Part shown: piece after piece, positions 8,579 to 31,608 of the stretch | Layout of the letters: every line of letters starts with the position of its first letter | Numbering within the stretch: the stretch's first letter is position 1 | Source: Bacteroidia bacterium | GTDB lineage: Bacteria; Bacteroidota; Bacteroidia; J057; JANWXU01 | Length of the DNA: 36,856 bases | NCBI GenBank assembly: GCA_025057395.1 | Contig: JANWXU010000030.1 | Location: forward strand, 1 to 36,856 | Reading direction: 5' to 3' | Position numbers and translations under genes: made by a program | Notes under the pieces: model-generated | The model's input: the letters and a program-made list of their open reading frames with translations, nothing else | Told to the model about the DNA's origin: nothing | Databases searched by the model: none

Positions 8579-9316
8579 TTATACTCTACCTACAGTAACT
8601 ACTGAGAGTCCTACTTTTTGAAGGGTGAGTTTATCTATAAGCTTGAAAAGAGGAACAAACATTTCGTAAATTTTCATTTGGTTTTTAGGAATAGTTTTAT
8701 TTTTTTGAATTTTTCCTGAAATATACCAACCAGGTATGCCCATTACATTAAAATAAAAAGACTTTAAAATAGTTATATTATTTTGTTCAAACAAAGCGTT
8801 GAGAGTTTTTTTTGTATAGCGTCGGTAGTGAAAAAGTTCTTCATCAAAGCGATTATACAGTGCGGGGTAGGCTGGTACTAAAATAATTAAAGTACCTTGC
8901 GGTTTAAGTAATTTTTTGGAATTATTAATTGCTAAAAGATCATTTTCTATATGTTCAATTACGTTGAGAGCAAAAACTGAATCAAAATAGCCTAGGTATT
9001 TAGCATACACTTTGTCAAAGTGGGGATGAACTAAATCTAGTAACAAAATATCTCCTAGGTTGGGGTAGGAAGCAAATCTTTCTTTTAATATGTTGCAATA
9101 ATTTTTGCGAATATCACTGACATACAAATTCTGTCCATTTTTGAGAAAAAATTGAGAAATATTTCCAATGCCACTACCCACCTCTAATATTTTACCCTGA
9201 GTATAAGGCACAATAGTTTGATACATCCATTCATTAAATTTATAGGCTTGGGCAATGGCTTCTAGTGTTTGTTGACCTTCTGTGTCAATTTCTTTGAAAG
9301 TAAATGCTTTGTCCAT
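8579..9316 (-). CDS. Class I SAM-dependent methyltransferase
   Basis: 245 residues. The SAM-binding motif I is ILEVGSGIGNISQFF (residues ~43-57), with the acidic motif II region YVSDIR, motif post-I LLLDLV and the VFALNVIEHIENDLLAI stretch typical of Methyltransf_11/23-type enzymes. The C-terminal ~80 residues are hydrophobic and basic (NVMGIPGWYISGKI), suggesting a membrane-associated or lipid-linked substrate. Its ATG is 2 bases after the stop of the glycosyltransferase gene, so the two are surely co-transcribed and may act on the same glycolipid or polyprenyl-linked glycan. The substrate is unknown. Confidence 0.82.
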   Translation of the reverse strand: MDKAFTFKEIDTEGQQTLEAIAQAYKFNEWMYQTIVPYTQGKILEVGSGIGNISQFFLKNGQNLYVSDIRKNYCNILKERFASYPNLGDILLLDLVHPHFDKVYAKYLGYFDSVFALNVIEHIENDLLAINNSKKLLKPQGTLIILVPAYPALYNRFDEELFHYRRYTKKTLNALFEQNNITILKSFYFNVMGIPGWYISGKIQKNKTIPKNQMKIYEMFVPLFKLIDKLTLQKVGLSVVTVGRV

Positions 9317-9318
9317 AT

Positions 9319-10056
9319 TTATTGCTTAGAAAAAATATTGTATTTAAGGATGCAATAGATAGCACGGAATCCATCTTTCCAACCAATTTTTTTGCCTTCT
9401 TGATAGGTTCTTCCGTAGTAGGAGATACCAACTTCATAAATTCGAATATTGGGGATACGTGCAATTTTTGCAGTTACTTCTGGTTCAAAACCGAATCGAT
9501 TTTCCTTGAGTTGTATCGATTTAATAATATCTGCTCGAAAAAGCTTATAGCAGGTTTCCATATCGCTTAAATTAAGATTACTGAACATATTAGAGATAAA
9601 GGTTAGGAACTTATTGCCAATTGTGTGCCAAAAGAAAAGGATTCTGTGAGCTTTGCCCCCTGAAAAGCGAGAACCATACACTACATCCGCAAATCCGTCT
9701 AATACAGGCTTAATAAGCAAATTATATTCTTGAGGGTCATATTCTAAATCTGCATCCTGGATGATGATATAATCTCCTGTAGCTACCTGAATTCCTGTTC
9801 TTATAGCAGCGCCTTTACCTTTATTTACCTCATGTTTATAGTATACAATATTTACCTCAGGATTTTGGCTTTTATATCGTAATACAGCTTCTTCCGTATC
9901 ATCCTTGGAGCAATCGTTAACAATTATAATTTCTTTTTCTATGTCATTCAATAGACTTACTGCTTTTACTTTATCTAGAATTAAATGAATGGTTTTGCCT
10001 TCGTTATATGCTGGTATTACAATTGAAAGTTTTCTAAAGTTTACTTTATTATTCAT
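9319..10056 (-). CDS. Family 2 glycosyltransferase, dolichyl/polyprenyl-phosphate type
   Basis: 245 residues from the ATG at 10056. A longer frame starts at 10110, but that start lies upstream of a strong hairpin (10076-10100) inside the would-be coding sequence and its first 18 residues are not family-like, so 10056 is preferred. The GT-A fold is shown by [36 protein letters not shown] and the metal-binding [12 protein letters not shown] (DAD). Such enzymes usually move a sugar from an NDP-sugar onto polyprenyl phosphate. No C-terminal transmembrane pair is present, so it is the DPM1-like rather than the GtrB-like form. It is coupled to the methyltransferase gene. Confidence 0.86.
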
Positions 10057-27289: not shown

Positions 27290-28117
27290 ATGAATGCTAT
27301 ACTTGTTCCGGTAGATTTTTCGTCTTATTCTGCTAATGCTTTAGTATATGGTCTGCAAATTGCTGCAAAAACAGGGTGGAAGTGCTATGCTTTAAGAGTA
27401 ACAAAGTTAAAGTTTACCAAATTTATTCATAGCGTAGAGGATATAGCCAAAAAAGAAAAAGAAGCTCTTGAAGAAGCTCAGCAGGAACTTCGAAATTTTT
27501 GTCAGGGAATTTATGAAAAGTATCCTTTTCTAAAGACGGTGCCGGCAGAGCAGTTAGTACGGGTAGGGCTGGTGGTAGAGGAAATTCTTTCCATAGTGGA
27601 AGAATTTGCATTTCAAATGATAATTATGGGGACGCAGGGCGCTGAGAGTACAGAAAAAAAAATTTTTGGGTCTAATACAGCTTTAGTAATCGAAAATACT
27701 ACGGTACCTGTTTTAGCTATTCCAGCTAACTGTGATTTATTTACTGTAGCTAATATTGTCTTTGCGCTGGATATTCATAAAAAGCCGAGCGATAGGGCAA
27801 TTCGTTTTTTATGTGAATTTGCGCAGGCTTTTGATGCATGGATTTCTATACTATATATTCAGAAAAAAAAAGAGGAGCCTAATTTAGATGAACTTGCAGG
27901 AGAAGCTCTAGGGTGGTTTTCTTATCCCAAGACGCGTTTAGAGGTCGTTGTGGATACAAGTATCCTGCACGGGATCGAGCTTTTTGTTGCGCAAAATCAA
28001 TTGGATATTTTAGCCCTGGTGGCGCGAGACCATGCTACTATTGAGCGTATTTTTGGCTCTAGCTTAGTACGAGAAATTGCACTGCATTTTCATTATCCCT
28101 TTTTAGCCCTGCATTAA
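27290..28117 (+). CDS. Universal stress protein, two-domain (UspA family)
   Basis: 275 residues in two Usp domains. Domain 1 (1-145): ILVPVDFSSYSANAL at the N-terminus and the nucleotide-binding GTQGAESTEKKIFGSNT (Gx2Gx9GS/T) followed by VPVLAIP. Domain 2 (~146-275) has the fold but a degraded motif, ending LALVARDHATIERIFGSS rather than G-x2-G. This suggests that domain 1 binds ATP and domain 2 is structural. Tandem-type Usp proteins are common in Bacteroidota and respond to starvation or stress. The next gene, a receiver-SpoIIE phosphatase, starts 56 bases downstream; the co-location with signalling genes is suggestive of a stress module. Confidence 0.9.
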   Translation: MNAILVPVDFSSYSANALVYGLQIAAKTGWKCYALRVTKLKFTKFIHSVEDIAKKEKEALEEAQQELRNFCQGIYEKYPFLKTVPAEQLVRVGLVVEEILSIVEEFAFQMIIMGTQGAESTEKKIFGSNTALVIENTTVPVLAIPANCDLFTVANIVFALDIHKKPSDRAIRFLCEFAQAFDAWISILYIQKKKEEPNLDELAGEALGWFSYPKTRLEVVVDTSILHGIELFVAQNQLDILALVARDHATIERIFGSSLVREIALHFHYPFLALH

Positions 28118-28173
28118 ATTAATGTATTAGTAGGTAAGTGTTTTTTGCTCCTTGGCAGAACCCACCGTTTTTT

Positions 28174-29898
28174 ATGAAGCCGGTTATTATTTGTGTGGAT
28201 GATGAAAAAGCAATTCTTAGTAGCTTAGAGCAACAAATTAAGCACTGGTTTGCTGGGCAATATGAGTGTGAACTTGCCCAAGGAGGCGAGGAAGCTCTTC
28301 TTTTAGTAGACGAATTATTAGAGGCTAATAGAAGAATTGCACTTATTATTTCAGACCAAATAATGCCCGGAATACAGGGCGATGAGTTATTAGTTTTATT
28401 GCACCAAAAATTACCAGAGGTTCCTAAAATATTATTAACAGGCCAGGCTAATTTTGCAGCTATTCAGAACGCAATTAGTAATGCTCGGCTGTATCGATAT
28501 ATTTCTAAGCCGTGGGAAGAAAATGACCTTATGCTTACTATTCAAGATGCTCTTACTAGTTTTGCTAGGCAACTTCAATTAATTGAGCATAATCGTTTGC
28601 TGCATTCTCTTGCAGAAGCCACTCAGCAGATTTCTAGTCAAATTCATTTTTCTTCTTTTGCTAGTTTATTGTTGGAAAGCGCTATTCGAACTATTGGTGC
28701 TCAAGATGGTTATCTTGTTTTGTGTAAGGATAAGAAGTGGTTTGTGGCTGCAGCGATATCTAGTGAGTCCAGTAAAAATCAAAATTTACAATATTGGGTC
28801 CAAAATAAAAATTTTGAACTTCTTCAAAGTGTCCTTACTAAAATTCAAGAAGTCCAAGGGCAAGATCACCCTTATCGTTTTAGTAGACTTTTTGCTCCTA
28901 TTTCTAGAAAAGGTAAGAACTTAGGATTCTTATTTCTCGAGTTTTTTCAGCCTGACCCTATTTTTTACTCTAATCGCCTGGAGGTTTTACAGATGTTGGC
29001 TAATCAGGCGGCTATTTGTTTAGAAAATTTGCAGCTTTACCACTACCTAGCTGTTCAGGCACAGGCTCTTCGAAGGGAAAAACAAAAAGTAGAGATTATT
29101 AACCAAGTGCTTAATGAAAAGAACAAAAATATTACTGATAGCATTCAGTATGCACGAAGGATTCAAGAGGCTATTATGCCCGAAAGATCTTTTTTGCAGC
29201 AGTATTTTCCTAACTCTTTTATACTGTATCAGCCCAAAGATATTGTAAGTGGTGATTTTTTTTGGTGGGTCGAAAAAGAGCATACTTTTATCATTGCGGC
29301 TGTCGATTGTACAGGTCATGGTGTACCCGGGGCTTTTATGTCGGTTATTGGTTCTAATTTACTCAATCAAATTGTAAACGAGTATGGAATTACCGAGCCT
29401 GATGCAATTTTACAATATTTAGATCACCGTGTACGAATAGTGCTCAAGCAAGATGATTATGGGGCAAGAGACTTATTGGGAAATGATAGTATGGAATTAG
29501 CCCTGTGTGCATATGAGCGTACCACCCGAACTCTAAAGTTTGCAGGAGCCAACCGGCCCCTGTATTTAGTACACGATGGCCAACTGTTAGAAGTTCCGCC
29601 TACCAAAGTATCAATTGGCGGCAAAAAAAATGAACAAAGTTTATTTTTTCGATTACACACTTTTAAAATAAATCCGGGTGATTGCCTATACATTTGCACA
29701 GACGGTATTGCAGACCAATTAGGAGGGCCAGAGCACAAGCGTTTCTCCACAAAGCGCCTTAAAGACTTAATATTAGCTCTACAACGGCTTCCCTTTGTAG
29801 AACAGCCCCATATTATTAGTGAAACAATTAAAGAATGGCGGGGTCTGCAAGAAGAACAAATTGACGATATTTTAATTATTGGTATTCTTTTTGAGTAA
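28174..29898 (+). CDS. Response regulator with GAF and SpoIIE-type PP2C phosphatase domain (active copy)
   Basis: 574 residues from the ATG at 28174; a GTG at 28138 adds 12 residues before the receiver and is less likely. Receiver at ~3-125: acidic D9/D10, phospho-acceptor D61, T89 and K112, all intact. A linker and a GAF-like domain (~140-300) follow, then a short helix bundle and a SpoIIE-type Ser phosphatase (~335-574). The metal-site motifs are all present: IVSGDFFWW, AVDCTGHGVPGAF, CTDGIADQLGG (D510) and the final DDILIIG. A likely role is dephosphorylation of an anti-sigma/anti-anti-sigma-type partner on phosphorylation of D61. A paralogue follows after 33 bases. Confidence 0.88.
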   Translation: MKPVIICVDDEKAILSSLEQQIKHWFAGQYECELAQGGEEALLLVDELLEANRRIALIISDQIMPGIQGDELLVLLHQKLPEVPKILLTGQANFAAIQNAISNARLYRYISKPWEENDLMLTIQDALTSFARQLQLIEHNRLLHSLAEATQQISSQIHFSSFASLLLESAIRTIGAQDGYLVLCKDKKWFVAAAISSESSKNQNLQYWVQNKNFELLQSVLTKIQEVQGQDHPYRFSRLFAPISRKGKNLGFLFLEFFQPDPIFYSNRLEVLQMLANQAAICLENLQLYHYLAVQAQALRREKQKVEIINQVLNEKNKNITDSIQYARRIQEAIMPERSFLQQYFPNSFILYQPKDIVSGDFFWWVEKEHTFIIAAVDCTGHGVPGAFMSVIGSNLLNQIVNEYGITEPDAILQYLDHRVRIVLKQDDYGARDLLGNDSMELALCAYERTTRTLKFAGANRPLYLVHDGQLLEVPPTKVSIGGKKNEQSLFFRLHTFKINPGDCLYICTDGIADQLGGPEHKRFSTKRLKDLILALQRLPFVEQPHIISETIKEWRGLQEEQIDDILIIGILFE

Positions 29899-29931
29899 AA
29901 TTTTATTTTTTTTGCCTAAAATTATGCTAAC

Positions 29932-31608
29932 ATGGTTAAGCCCATTATTCTTTGTGTAGAAGATAACCCCCAGCTGTGTGAGGCGCTGGTTGAACAAATA
30001 GACCAGCGAATTGGTGATGATTTTGACTGTTTAGCAGCGCCTAATGCTATCGAAGCTCTAGAAATAATAGACGAAATTATCGATAATGGTAAAGAGCTAG
30101 CGGTAGTAATAGCCGACCAAACAATTCCTAATGGAATCCATGGAGATGAGTTTTTGATTCGAGTGCACTCAGTATTTCCGGAAACTATTAAAATTTTGCT
30201 TTGCGAAAAGCACGAACTTAGCAGGGTTGCTAATGCGGTTGAAAAGGCTAGCTTGTATCGTTATATTTTGAAGCCATGGGAAGAGTATGATTTAGCGCTT
30301 ACTATAGAAGAGGCGGCAAGAAGTTATTTGCAATATTTACAGCTTGTTCAGTATAATCAATATAACCGCCTACTTCGTAGCCTTAATCGAGCTATGCAAG
30401 AGCTAAGTGGTGAAATTGAGTATGAAAAATTAATAAAGCGTTTTATTAATACAGCGATTCAAATAACTGAAGCTGAGATTGGCTTTCTTTTTCTTTATAC
30501 TCAGCAAAAGTTAAATATTGCTGCAGTAGCCTTTTCTAAGGCGGAGCAGGCTCGAAGGTTACAGCGCGATCTTGTAAAGCCCCAGCCCTCTTTGCTACAA
30601 GAAATTCTGATTAGTATGAAACAAGTTCTACACCGTCCTTTTGCTAAAGACTACCGAATGGCAGCTAGTATCACCCATAAAGGAAATACCCTAGGATATG
30701 TATATGTCGAAAATTCCATTTCAGGAAATGTTTTTGATGTGAACCACAAAGAAGTGCTGCAAATGTTTGCTTCTCAGATGGCAATTTCTCTAGAAAATGC
30801 GCGCCTTTACAGAAATTTAGAAAAGAAATCTAATGAATTAATTCAGATTAAGGAAATTATTGAAACTAAAGAAGAAGACATCAACGAAAATATTACTTAT
30901 ACAAGTAAAATTTTAAGGGCCACCCTTCCTAATCCTAAGTATTTTTTACAACTTTTTGCCGATTCTTTTCTTTTCGAACATCCTAGAGAACAAATAGGGG
31001 GGGATTTCCTGTGGTGGAGTGAAAAAAATGATCTCATTTTTTTCGCTGTAGTGGATTGCACAGGCACAGGCGTGCCAGGAGCTTTTATGGCTATTGTAGT
31101 AAATAATTTGCTTACTCAAATTATCAATCAATATGAGTTATTAGAATTAGAAGCAATAATGCAAATGCTTAACTTGCAATTGCAGGCCGCTATTGACGAA
31201 GATTACGCGCTTTCGCTTTCTTTTTGTTGCTTAAATCCTGATAGAAATCTTCTTAAATTTTTAGGTGTCAAGCGTAGTATGCTAATTATTAGGGAGGGAG
31301 AAACTATTGAAATTCAAAATAATCGCTTTTATTTAGATAATCGTACTGATCCTCGTATTTACTTTAAAACAACTACCGTGGACTTATACAAGGGAGATGT
31401 ACTGTTTCTATACACTAATGGAATAACTAATCAGTTAGGGGGTAAAGAGAAAAAGAAGCTGGGCATTAAAAGAATAAAAGATTTCTTAATTGCTAATAAT
31501 AATTTACCTTTGCCTCAGCAAGGGCAGGCTTTACAGAAATTATTGCAAGAGTGGCGTGGCAATCTACCGATTTTGGACGATATGCTGGCTATGGCAGTTA
31601 AAATTTAA
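29932..31608 (+). CDS. Receiver-GAF-SpoIIE paralogue, probable pseudophosphatase
   Basis: 558 residues, with the same domain order as the preceding protein (receiver ~1-128, GAF ~145-300, SpoIIE-like ~325-558) and clear sequence kinship throughout. The receiver keeps D11, D62 and K114, but the conserved Thr/Ser is Cys (C91, KILLCEK). In the phosphatase domain IGGDFLWW is kept, GHG becomes GTG (CTGTGVPGAF), and the metal-binding aspartate of TDGI is asparagine (TNGI, N496, codon 31417-31419). The stretch around the activity-linked loop (SMELALC in the neighbour) is shortened. A fold-intact but weakly active or inactive phosphatase is therefore inferred, perhaps a regulator or competitor of its neighbour. 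Confidence 0.85.
   Translation: MVKPIILCVEDNPQLCEALVEQIDQRIGDDFDCLAAPNAIEALEIIDEIIDNGKELAVVIADQTIPNGIHGDEFLIRVHSVFPETIKILLCEKHELSRVANAVEKASLYRYILKPWEEYDLALTIEEAARSYLQYLQLVQYNQYNRLLRSLNRAMQELSGEIEYEKLIKRFINTAIQITEAEIGFLFLYTQQKLNIAAVAFSKAEQARRLQRDLVKPQPSLLQEILISMKQVLHRPFAKDYRMAASITHKGNTLGYVYVENSISGNVFDVNHKEVLQMFASQMAISLENARLYRNLEKKSNELIQIKEIIETKEEDINENITYTSKILRATLPNPKYFLQLFADSFLFEHPREQIGGDFLWWSEKNDLIFFAVVDCTGTGVPGAFMAIVVNNLLTQIINQYELLELEAIMQMLNLQLQAAIDEDYALSLSFCCLNPDRNLLKFLGVKRSMLIIREGETIEIQNNRFYLDNRTDPRIYFKTTTVDLYKGDVLFLYTNGITNQLGGKEKKKLGIKRIKDFLIANNNLPLPQQGQALQKLLQEWRGNLPILDDMLAMAVKI

Follow-up and report, generated by a model that had tools for sequence, protein, structure and literature searches.

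Does a gene that lies directly beside an intact phosphatase gene, and shares its domain order, still encode an enzyme? This question is raised by two adjacent plus-strand open reading frames (ORFs), copy 1 and copy 2, in the window analyzed here, i.e., the whole 36,856-nucleotide stretch from contig JANWXU010000030.1 (positions 1 to 36,856) of the Bacteroidia bacterium assembly GCA_025057395.1 (genome G000). The two ORFs are 33 bp apart, and each encodes a receiver, a GAF domain, a helical linker and a SpoIIE-type PP2C domain, in this order (Table 1). A first-pass annotation had described them as two receiver-GAF-SpoIIE genes at 28174-31608, and both ORFs were confirmed, with receiver (PF00072) matches above the curated cut-off and SpoIIE (PF07228) scores of 67.8 bits for copy 1 and 64.9 bits for copy 2, both above the cut-off of 25; for GAF, the Pfam score of copy 2 just reaches the cut-off (22.5 vs 22.4 bits), whereas that of copy 1 stays under it. 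Judged by its residues, copy 2 has very probably lost normal phosphatase activity and is likely a pseudophosphatase. Our tentative main reading, to which we give a probability of about 0.45, is that copy 2 lost efficient catalysis and was kept as a folded regulatory protein, the heterodimer partner of copy 1.

The metal-binding aspartates were mapped with a profile of both phosphatase domains and their relatives, aligned to the solved structures of SpoIIE (3t91, 5mqh, 5ucg; 3t91 chain numbering) and SiaA (6k4e). All four SpoIIE metal aspartates, D610, D628, D746 and D795, have aspartate counterparts in copy 1 (D361, D378, D510 and D564), and its receiver residue set is complete (acidic pair, phospho-acceptor Asp, Thr and Lys), as had been claimed from the sequence; copy 1 is probably an ordinary, active receiver-GAF-SpoIIE phosphatase. 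In copy 2, the same four positions are D358, D375, N496 and D549, i.e., three of the four required aspartates are present. In SpoIIE, the Mn1 ligands are D628, D746 and D795, and the second site is formed by D628, G629 and D610 (PMC3517971). Because D746 is a Mn1 ligand in SpoIIE and is replaced by Asn in copy 2, copy 2 lacks one of the three Mn1 carboxylates, which would entail the loss of efficient PPM catalysis; the earlier statement that these aspartates bind the catalytic metals and that the second copy has lost one of them is thereby borne out. The corresponding residue of human PPM1A is, we assume, D239. The D239N mutant of PPM1A is the standard phosphatase-dead form (PMC7978383).

N496 is not the only lesion. 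The motif TDGIAD has become TNGITN through a second Asp-to-Asn change (N500), and no acidic residue that could serve as an alternative ligand is left inside this motif; GTG stands in place of GHG; and a gap of 11 residues, which precedes the MELALC strand, removes an Asp that is present family-wide. The lesions listed in the first-pass annotation (C91, GTG, N496 and a shortened region near SMELALC) all hold. A single-base sequencing error at N496 was considered and would not alter the verdict, since the remaining lesions (GTG, N500, the deletion and the further invariant positions that were lost) do not depend on N496. In the receiver of copy 2, the phospho-acceptor D62, Lys114 and the acidic pair E10/D11 are retained, Cys91 replaces Thr89 of copy 1 so that the residue set is incomplete, TGQ has become CEK, and one residue is inserted after P66. 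Phosphorylation of this receiver is still possible, with switching likely altered.

A rival reading is that copy 2 is still active, with Asn as a weak ligand or as a single-metal enzyme. In a comparison of copy 2 with ten relatives, it keeps 24 of the 40 PP2C positions that are invariant in the other family members, whereas copy 1 and every other member keep 89-100%; the 16 lost positions include GHG and the loop Asp. The residue at the D746 position was also followed in other proteins. A profile-based survey of G000 and five further genomes of the same order, comprising 130 full SpoIIE domains, revealed the loss of a metal-site Asp in nine domains and Asn at the D746 position (TNG type) in three, and among the loci that were fetched the position is Asp in 122/122 scorable domains, a set that is biased because it was found mainly by DCTGHGVP or receiver patterns. 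Thus, TNG is rare (3/130 and 0/122) rather than common among active enzymes, a possibility that had been raised against the pseudophosphatase. In favor of activity are the three remaining metal aspartates and a short SpoIIE protein, L136 (L278 8869-9903, G005:C61), the domain of which is canonical apart from a single metal-site change, SNG; this protein offers a natural opportunity to see whether the Asn by itself abolishes activity. Taken together with the dead D239N form of PPM1A, the evidence makes an active copy 2 very improbable; copy 2 can be described as a PPM fold member with a lost metal ligand that may have residual activity.

The losses are distributed unevenly along copy 2. Conservation relative to normal is 1.03 in the GAF domain and the helix that precedes it, compared to 0.64 in the PP2C domain outside the switch helices, a GAF-to-PP2C difference of 0.40 (95% interval 0.26-0.51; 200 column resamplings); therefore, selection has been relaxed on the catalytic core, whereas the sensor and the preceding helix remain constrained. 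Of the invariant positions, copy 2 keeps 30/38 in the receiver and 13/18 in GAF plus linker. The best-kept part of its PP2C domain is the switch helices (ratio about 0.78-0.81, not significantly above the rest of PP2C), and the lowest conservation, 0.46 of normal, is that of residues 421-469, the sheet region after the switch helices. An AlphaFold2 model of copy 2 (20 rows) has a mean predicted local distance difference test score (pLDDT) of 88 and a predicted template modeling score of 0.51, so that the mutual arrangement of the domains is uncertain; it contains an alpha/beta domain at the place of GAF, and its top match in the PDB is the PP2C domain of SiaA, 6k4e (template modeling score, TM, 0.90 on target length), followed by Pseudomonas aeruginosa RssB. 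Copy 2 is thus predicted to retain the PP2C fold, with the model being uninformative on metals.

These data bear on whether copy 2 is a redundant duplicate that is becoming a pseudogene. Copy 1 and copy 2 fall into one supported subfamily (100/98), to which several other families in this order contribute single intact members. On the tree, sisterhood of the two copies is neither favored nor excluded (approximately unbiased test, AU, p = 0.18). The proposal of a duplicated pair accordingly stands as to kinship, and does not stand as to a recent or exclusive duplication, given the 35% overall identity and the AU result; copy 2 is best described, from sequence comparison, as a divergent paralogue from the same subfamily as copy 1, the duplication of which need not be recent or exclusive. 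Decay would account for the relaxed conservation of PP2C, receiver and linker, for the long branch of copy 2 (1.59 vs 0.84 for copy 1) and for the failure to find an orthologue. Conversely, 558 codons are still open despite divergence down to 35% identity, base composition by codon position is like that of neighboring genes, the GAF domain and joint helix are conserved as in orthologues, and the fold is predicted with high confidence. We consider decay highly unlikely; on this pattern of conservation, copy 2 is not simply decaying.

A broken metal site in a protein that keeps its fold and its sensor domain is probably indicative of a non-catalytic partner. RsbU and SpoIIE have been shown to be activated by dimerization via linker and switch helices, in which the helical linker draws two phosphatase domains together (PMC12143880, PMC5468089); since such dimerization turns the phosphatase on, a dead partner would set or damp the activity of copy 1. 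Under this mechanism, copy 2 would pair with copy 1 via the GAF domain and its flanking helices and would contribute a further receiver and GAF input with a tuning of its own. With GAF and the adjoining helix kept and the active site lost, a dimer partner is most likely the best fit.

The first-pass annotation had interpreted copy 2 in another way, as a protein that binds the phosphorylated partner of copy 1 and protects it without hydrolysis, in competition with copy 1. PPM enzymes mutated in the active site can hold on to a substrate and shield it (PPM1H D288A, PMC6850886), and within the PP2C domain of copy 2 the switch helices are conserved best, albeit not significantly. However, the residue lost in copy 2 differs from the one that is changed in the substrate-trap mutants, and the stretch 421-469 is the most eroded and carries the 11-residue deletion. 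The supply of partners is also small. When STAS and anti-sigma genes were sought in G000 (96% complete), one detectable STAS protein (C201:5874-6167, 121 aa) was found versus about 24 full SpoIIE domains, along with one short RsbW-like HATPase kinase (C71:1482-1847, 170 aa), both off the window contig. The surveyed genomes contain 16-32 SpoIIE-type hits each; in G000, with 27 such hits, phosphatases far outnumber the known partners. Thus, of the earlier interpretation, the loss of normal catalysis is well supported by the D239N-type change, whereas binding of the same partner and competition for it fare poorly with a sheet region at 0.46 and one STAS protein; we regard shielding as unlikely.

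The recurrence of intact/degenerate pairs at other loci speaks for copy 2 as a regulatory partner. G000 has 27 SpoIIE-type hits, of which about 24 are essentially full domains and two are degenerate; the second degenerate gene (C197:12480-14204; SGN, GKG, TSG, ED) has an intact receiver-GAF-SpoIIE gene as its immediate neighbor. A further intact/degenerate pair is present in locus L184 of another genome. In the second protein of this pair, no SpoIIE motif is left; against the SpoIIE profile, the corresponding region reaches 6.2 bits, a weak score that none of 200 shuffles attained, and the model of the protein (pLDDT 74) matches RssB and RsbX. In L183, both members of a tandem pair are intact. 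The suggestion that the pair be searched for in other genomes was thus rewarded with respect to intact/degenerate pairs, and not with respect to an orthologue of copy 2 carrying Asn. At least three independent degeneration events are needed on the tree, where long branches make placements unsure. Enrichment of degenerate domains in the receiver-GAF architecture gives p = 0.03 with L125 counted and 0.11 without it, a weak, post hoc association. A recurrent class in Bacteroidota, in which one member of a tandem receiver-GAF-PPM pair has repeatedly lost catalysis and would regulate its intact neighbor as a dedicated subunit, within an asymmetric active/inactive dimer that takes separate receiver and GAF inputs from each member, is rather unlikely.

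It should be noted that several observations weigh against a regulatory partner of copy 1. The catalytic loss falls short of proven, as three metal aspartates (D358, D375 and D549) are still in place and may bind one metal. The linker of copy 2, which would take part in dimerization, is relaxed (0.67 of normal), and the identity between the copies is only 31% in GAF and 30% in the linker. A scan of genome contigs with the copy 2 protein detected no orthologue, and the best hits in 40 relatives are copy-1-like only. Degenerate domains are not significantly enriched in tandems (3/9 vs 14/121, p = 0.095), and solitary degenerate receiver-GAF-SpoIIE proteins exist (G001:C30, G001:C1 and G006:C86). 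Since some of these proteins stand alone, copy 2 could have an RssB-like role, i.e., its pseudo-PP2C domain could bind and deliver an unrelated protein under the control of receiver and GAF, independently of copy 1. RssB is a receiver plus PP2C-like protein that functions with no need for phosphatase activity (PMC5468089, PMC12143880), and RssB structures come next after SiaA among the matches of the copy 2 model. Against this adaptor role are the GAF domain of copy 2, which RssB does not have, and the intact paralogue next door; we judge it quite unlikely. The heterodimer with copy 1 is the reading that we retain, and a non-catalytic paralogue beside an active one offers a compact test case for regulation by bacterial pseudo-PPM subunits.

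Other genes of related architecture were encountered in the survey. A tandem triple of SpoIIE proteins of about 860 aa with another architecture (G006:C6; L314 5359-13027) has a degenerate third copy (GCGRQG, TSG, GD). In L279 7333-10198 (G007:C54), a receiver-GAF-SpoIIE gene is interrupted by an inserted DDE transposase ORF (8748-9812). The receiver-GAF ORFs of L309-L312, in which the match extends only to residue ~320, were considered as extreme SpoIIE decay and rejected, as their motifs show histidine-kinase-like C-termini.

Within the window, a universal stress protein (Usp) gene precedes the pair, as annotated, and probably forms one transcription unit with it; a scan for Bacteroidota-type promoters between copy 1 and copy 2, itself uninformative, found no site. 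An in-frame GTG is present upstream of copy 1, at 28138. On the 3' side of the pair are genes for a class-III aminotransferase, a DCC1-like protein and a fatty-acid desaturase. Many intact receiver-GAF-SpoIIE genes have a stand-alone receiver of about 135 aa immediately 5', which is missing at the window pair.

Table 1. Features of the gene pair (window positions) and of related loci (positions within the locus named).
Feature	Position	Strand	Evidence or remark
Universal stress protein gene, upstream of pair	27290..28117	+	PF00582, E 1.1e-26; 56 bp before copy 1 ATG
Copy 1, intact receiver-GAF-SpoIIE phosphatase (probable), 574 aa	28174..29898	+	all receiver and metal residues present
Copy 1 receiver domain	28186..28542	+	PF00072, E 4e-15; D9, D10, phospho-acceptor D61, T89, K112
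Copy 1 PP2C/SpoIIE domain	29179..29895	+	PF07228, E 1.6e-18; metal aspartates D361, D378, D510, D564
Copy 2, receiver-GAF-degenerate SpoIIE protein, 558 aa	29932..31608	+	predicted fold, pLDDT 88
Copy 2 receiver domain	29947..30303	+	PF00072, E 7.6e-8; E10/D11, D62, K114 kept; C91 for Thr
Copy 2 receiver-GAF joint helix and GAF domain	30307..30801	+	conservation ratio 1.03, level of orthologues
Copy 2 PP2C/SpoIIE domain, degenerate active site	30931..31605	+	PF07228, E 1.2e-17; fold match SiaA PP2C 6k4e
T379, in place of His of GHG	31066..31068	+	alignment; GTG for GHG
11-residue deletion after switch helices	31192..31212	+	alignment; copy 1 has GARDLLGNDSMEL
N496 (codon AAT), in place of metal-binding Asp	31417..31419	+	alignment, profile mapping; SpoIIE D746, PPM1A D239 type; D510 in copy 1
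N500 (codon AAT), second Asp-to-Asn change of motif	31429..31431	+	alignment; TDGIAD to TNGITN
D549, retained equivalent of SpoIIE D795	31576..31578	+	profile mapping
Tandem pair, G000:C197	L068 7445-11017		degenerate receiver-GAF-SpoIIE gene 66 bp upstream of intact one
Tandem pair, uncultured Bacteroidia N1_Bin_Bin_101, CALDDN010000007.1	L184 5995-9538		intact receiver-GAF-SpoIIE, then degenerate receiver-GAF protein 100 bp later
Receiver-GAF front end fused to histidine-kinase-like C-termini	L309 6152-7873, L310 5951-7597, L311 5292-6995, L312 6758-8419		
Stand-alone receiver loci	L058 9611-10024, L059 8796-9209, L060 11591-12004, L063 9337-9744, L069 4309-4713, L183 3267-3656		

Literature searches of partial coverage found no description of bacterial intact/degenerate PPM pairs and no paper naming both pseudophosphatase and RsbU; individual features of the pair can nevertheless be compared to known systems. 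The phosphatases RsbU, RsbP, RsbZ and SpoIIE have a PPM domain driven by N-terminal sensors via a helical linker, and copy 1, with its four metal aspartates, resembles them; copy 2 differs in having no equivalent of D746, and the genome differs in having one STAS protein and one short RsbW-like kinase. SiaA of P. aeruginosa, which dephosphorylates SiaC and carries another type of N-terminal sensor, provides the closest solved structure both by sequence (family profile E 2.7e-57) and by fold, while the site of copy 2 is broken. RssB of Escherichia coli and P. aeruginosa, a stress sigma factor adaptor made up of a receiver and a PP2C-like domain, shares with copy 2 an N-terminal receiver and a PP2C-like output, the role of which is non-catalytic in RssB and probably so in copy 2, and the fold match is to P. 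aeruginosa RssB 3f7a/3f79. In RssB, however, the PP2C-like domain follows the receiver directly, whereas in copy 2 the GAF domain and helical linker lie between them; copy 2 also keeps the last strand and adjoins an intact paralogue, and RssB delivers sigma-S to ClpXP. Among eukaryotes, TAB1 and PHLPP2 are PPM pseudophosphatases that have lost conserved metal ligands and have one remaining metal site (PMC12002173); the predicted PPM fold of copy 2 with its lost ligand at N496 is similar, although the sensor domains are unrelated. By analogy, RssB, TAB1 and PHLPP2 are precedents for a protein of the copy 2 kind.

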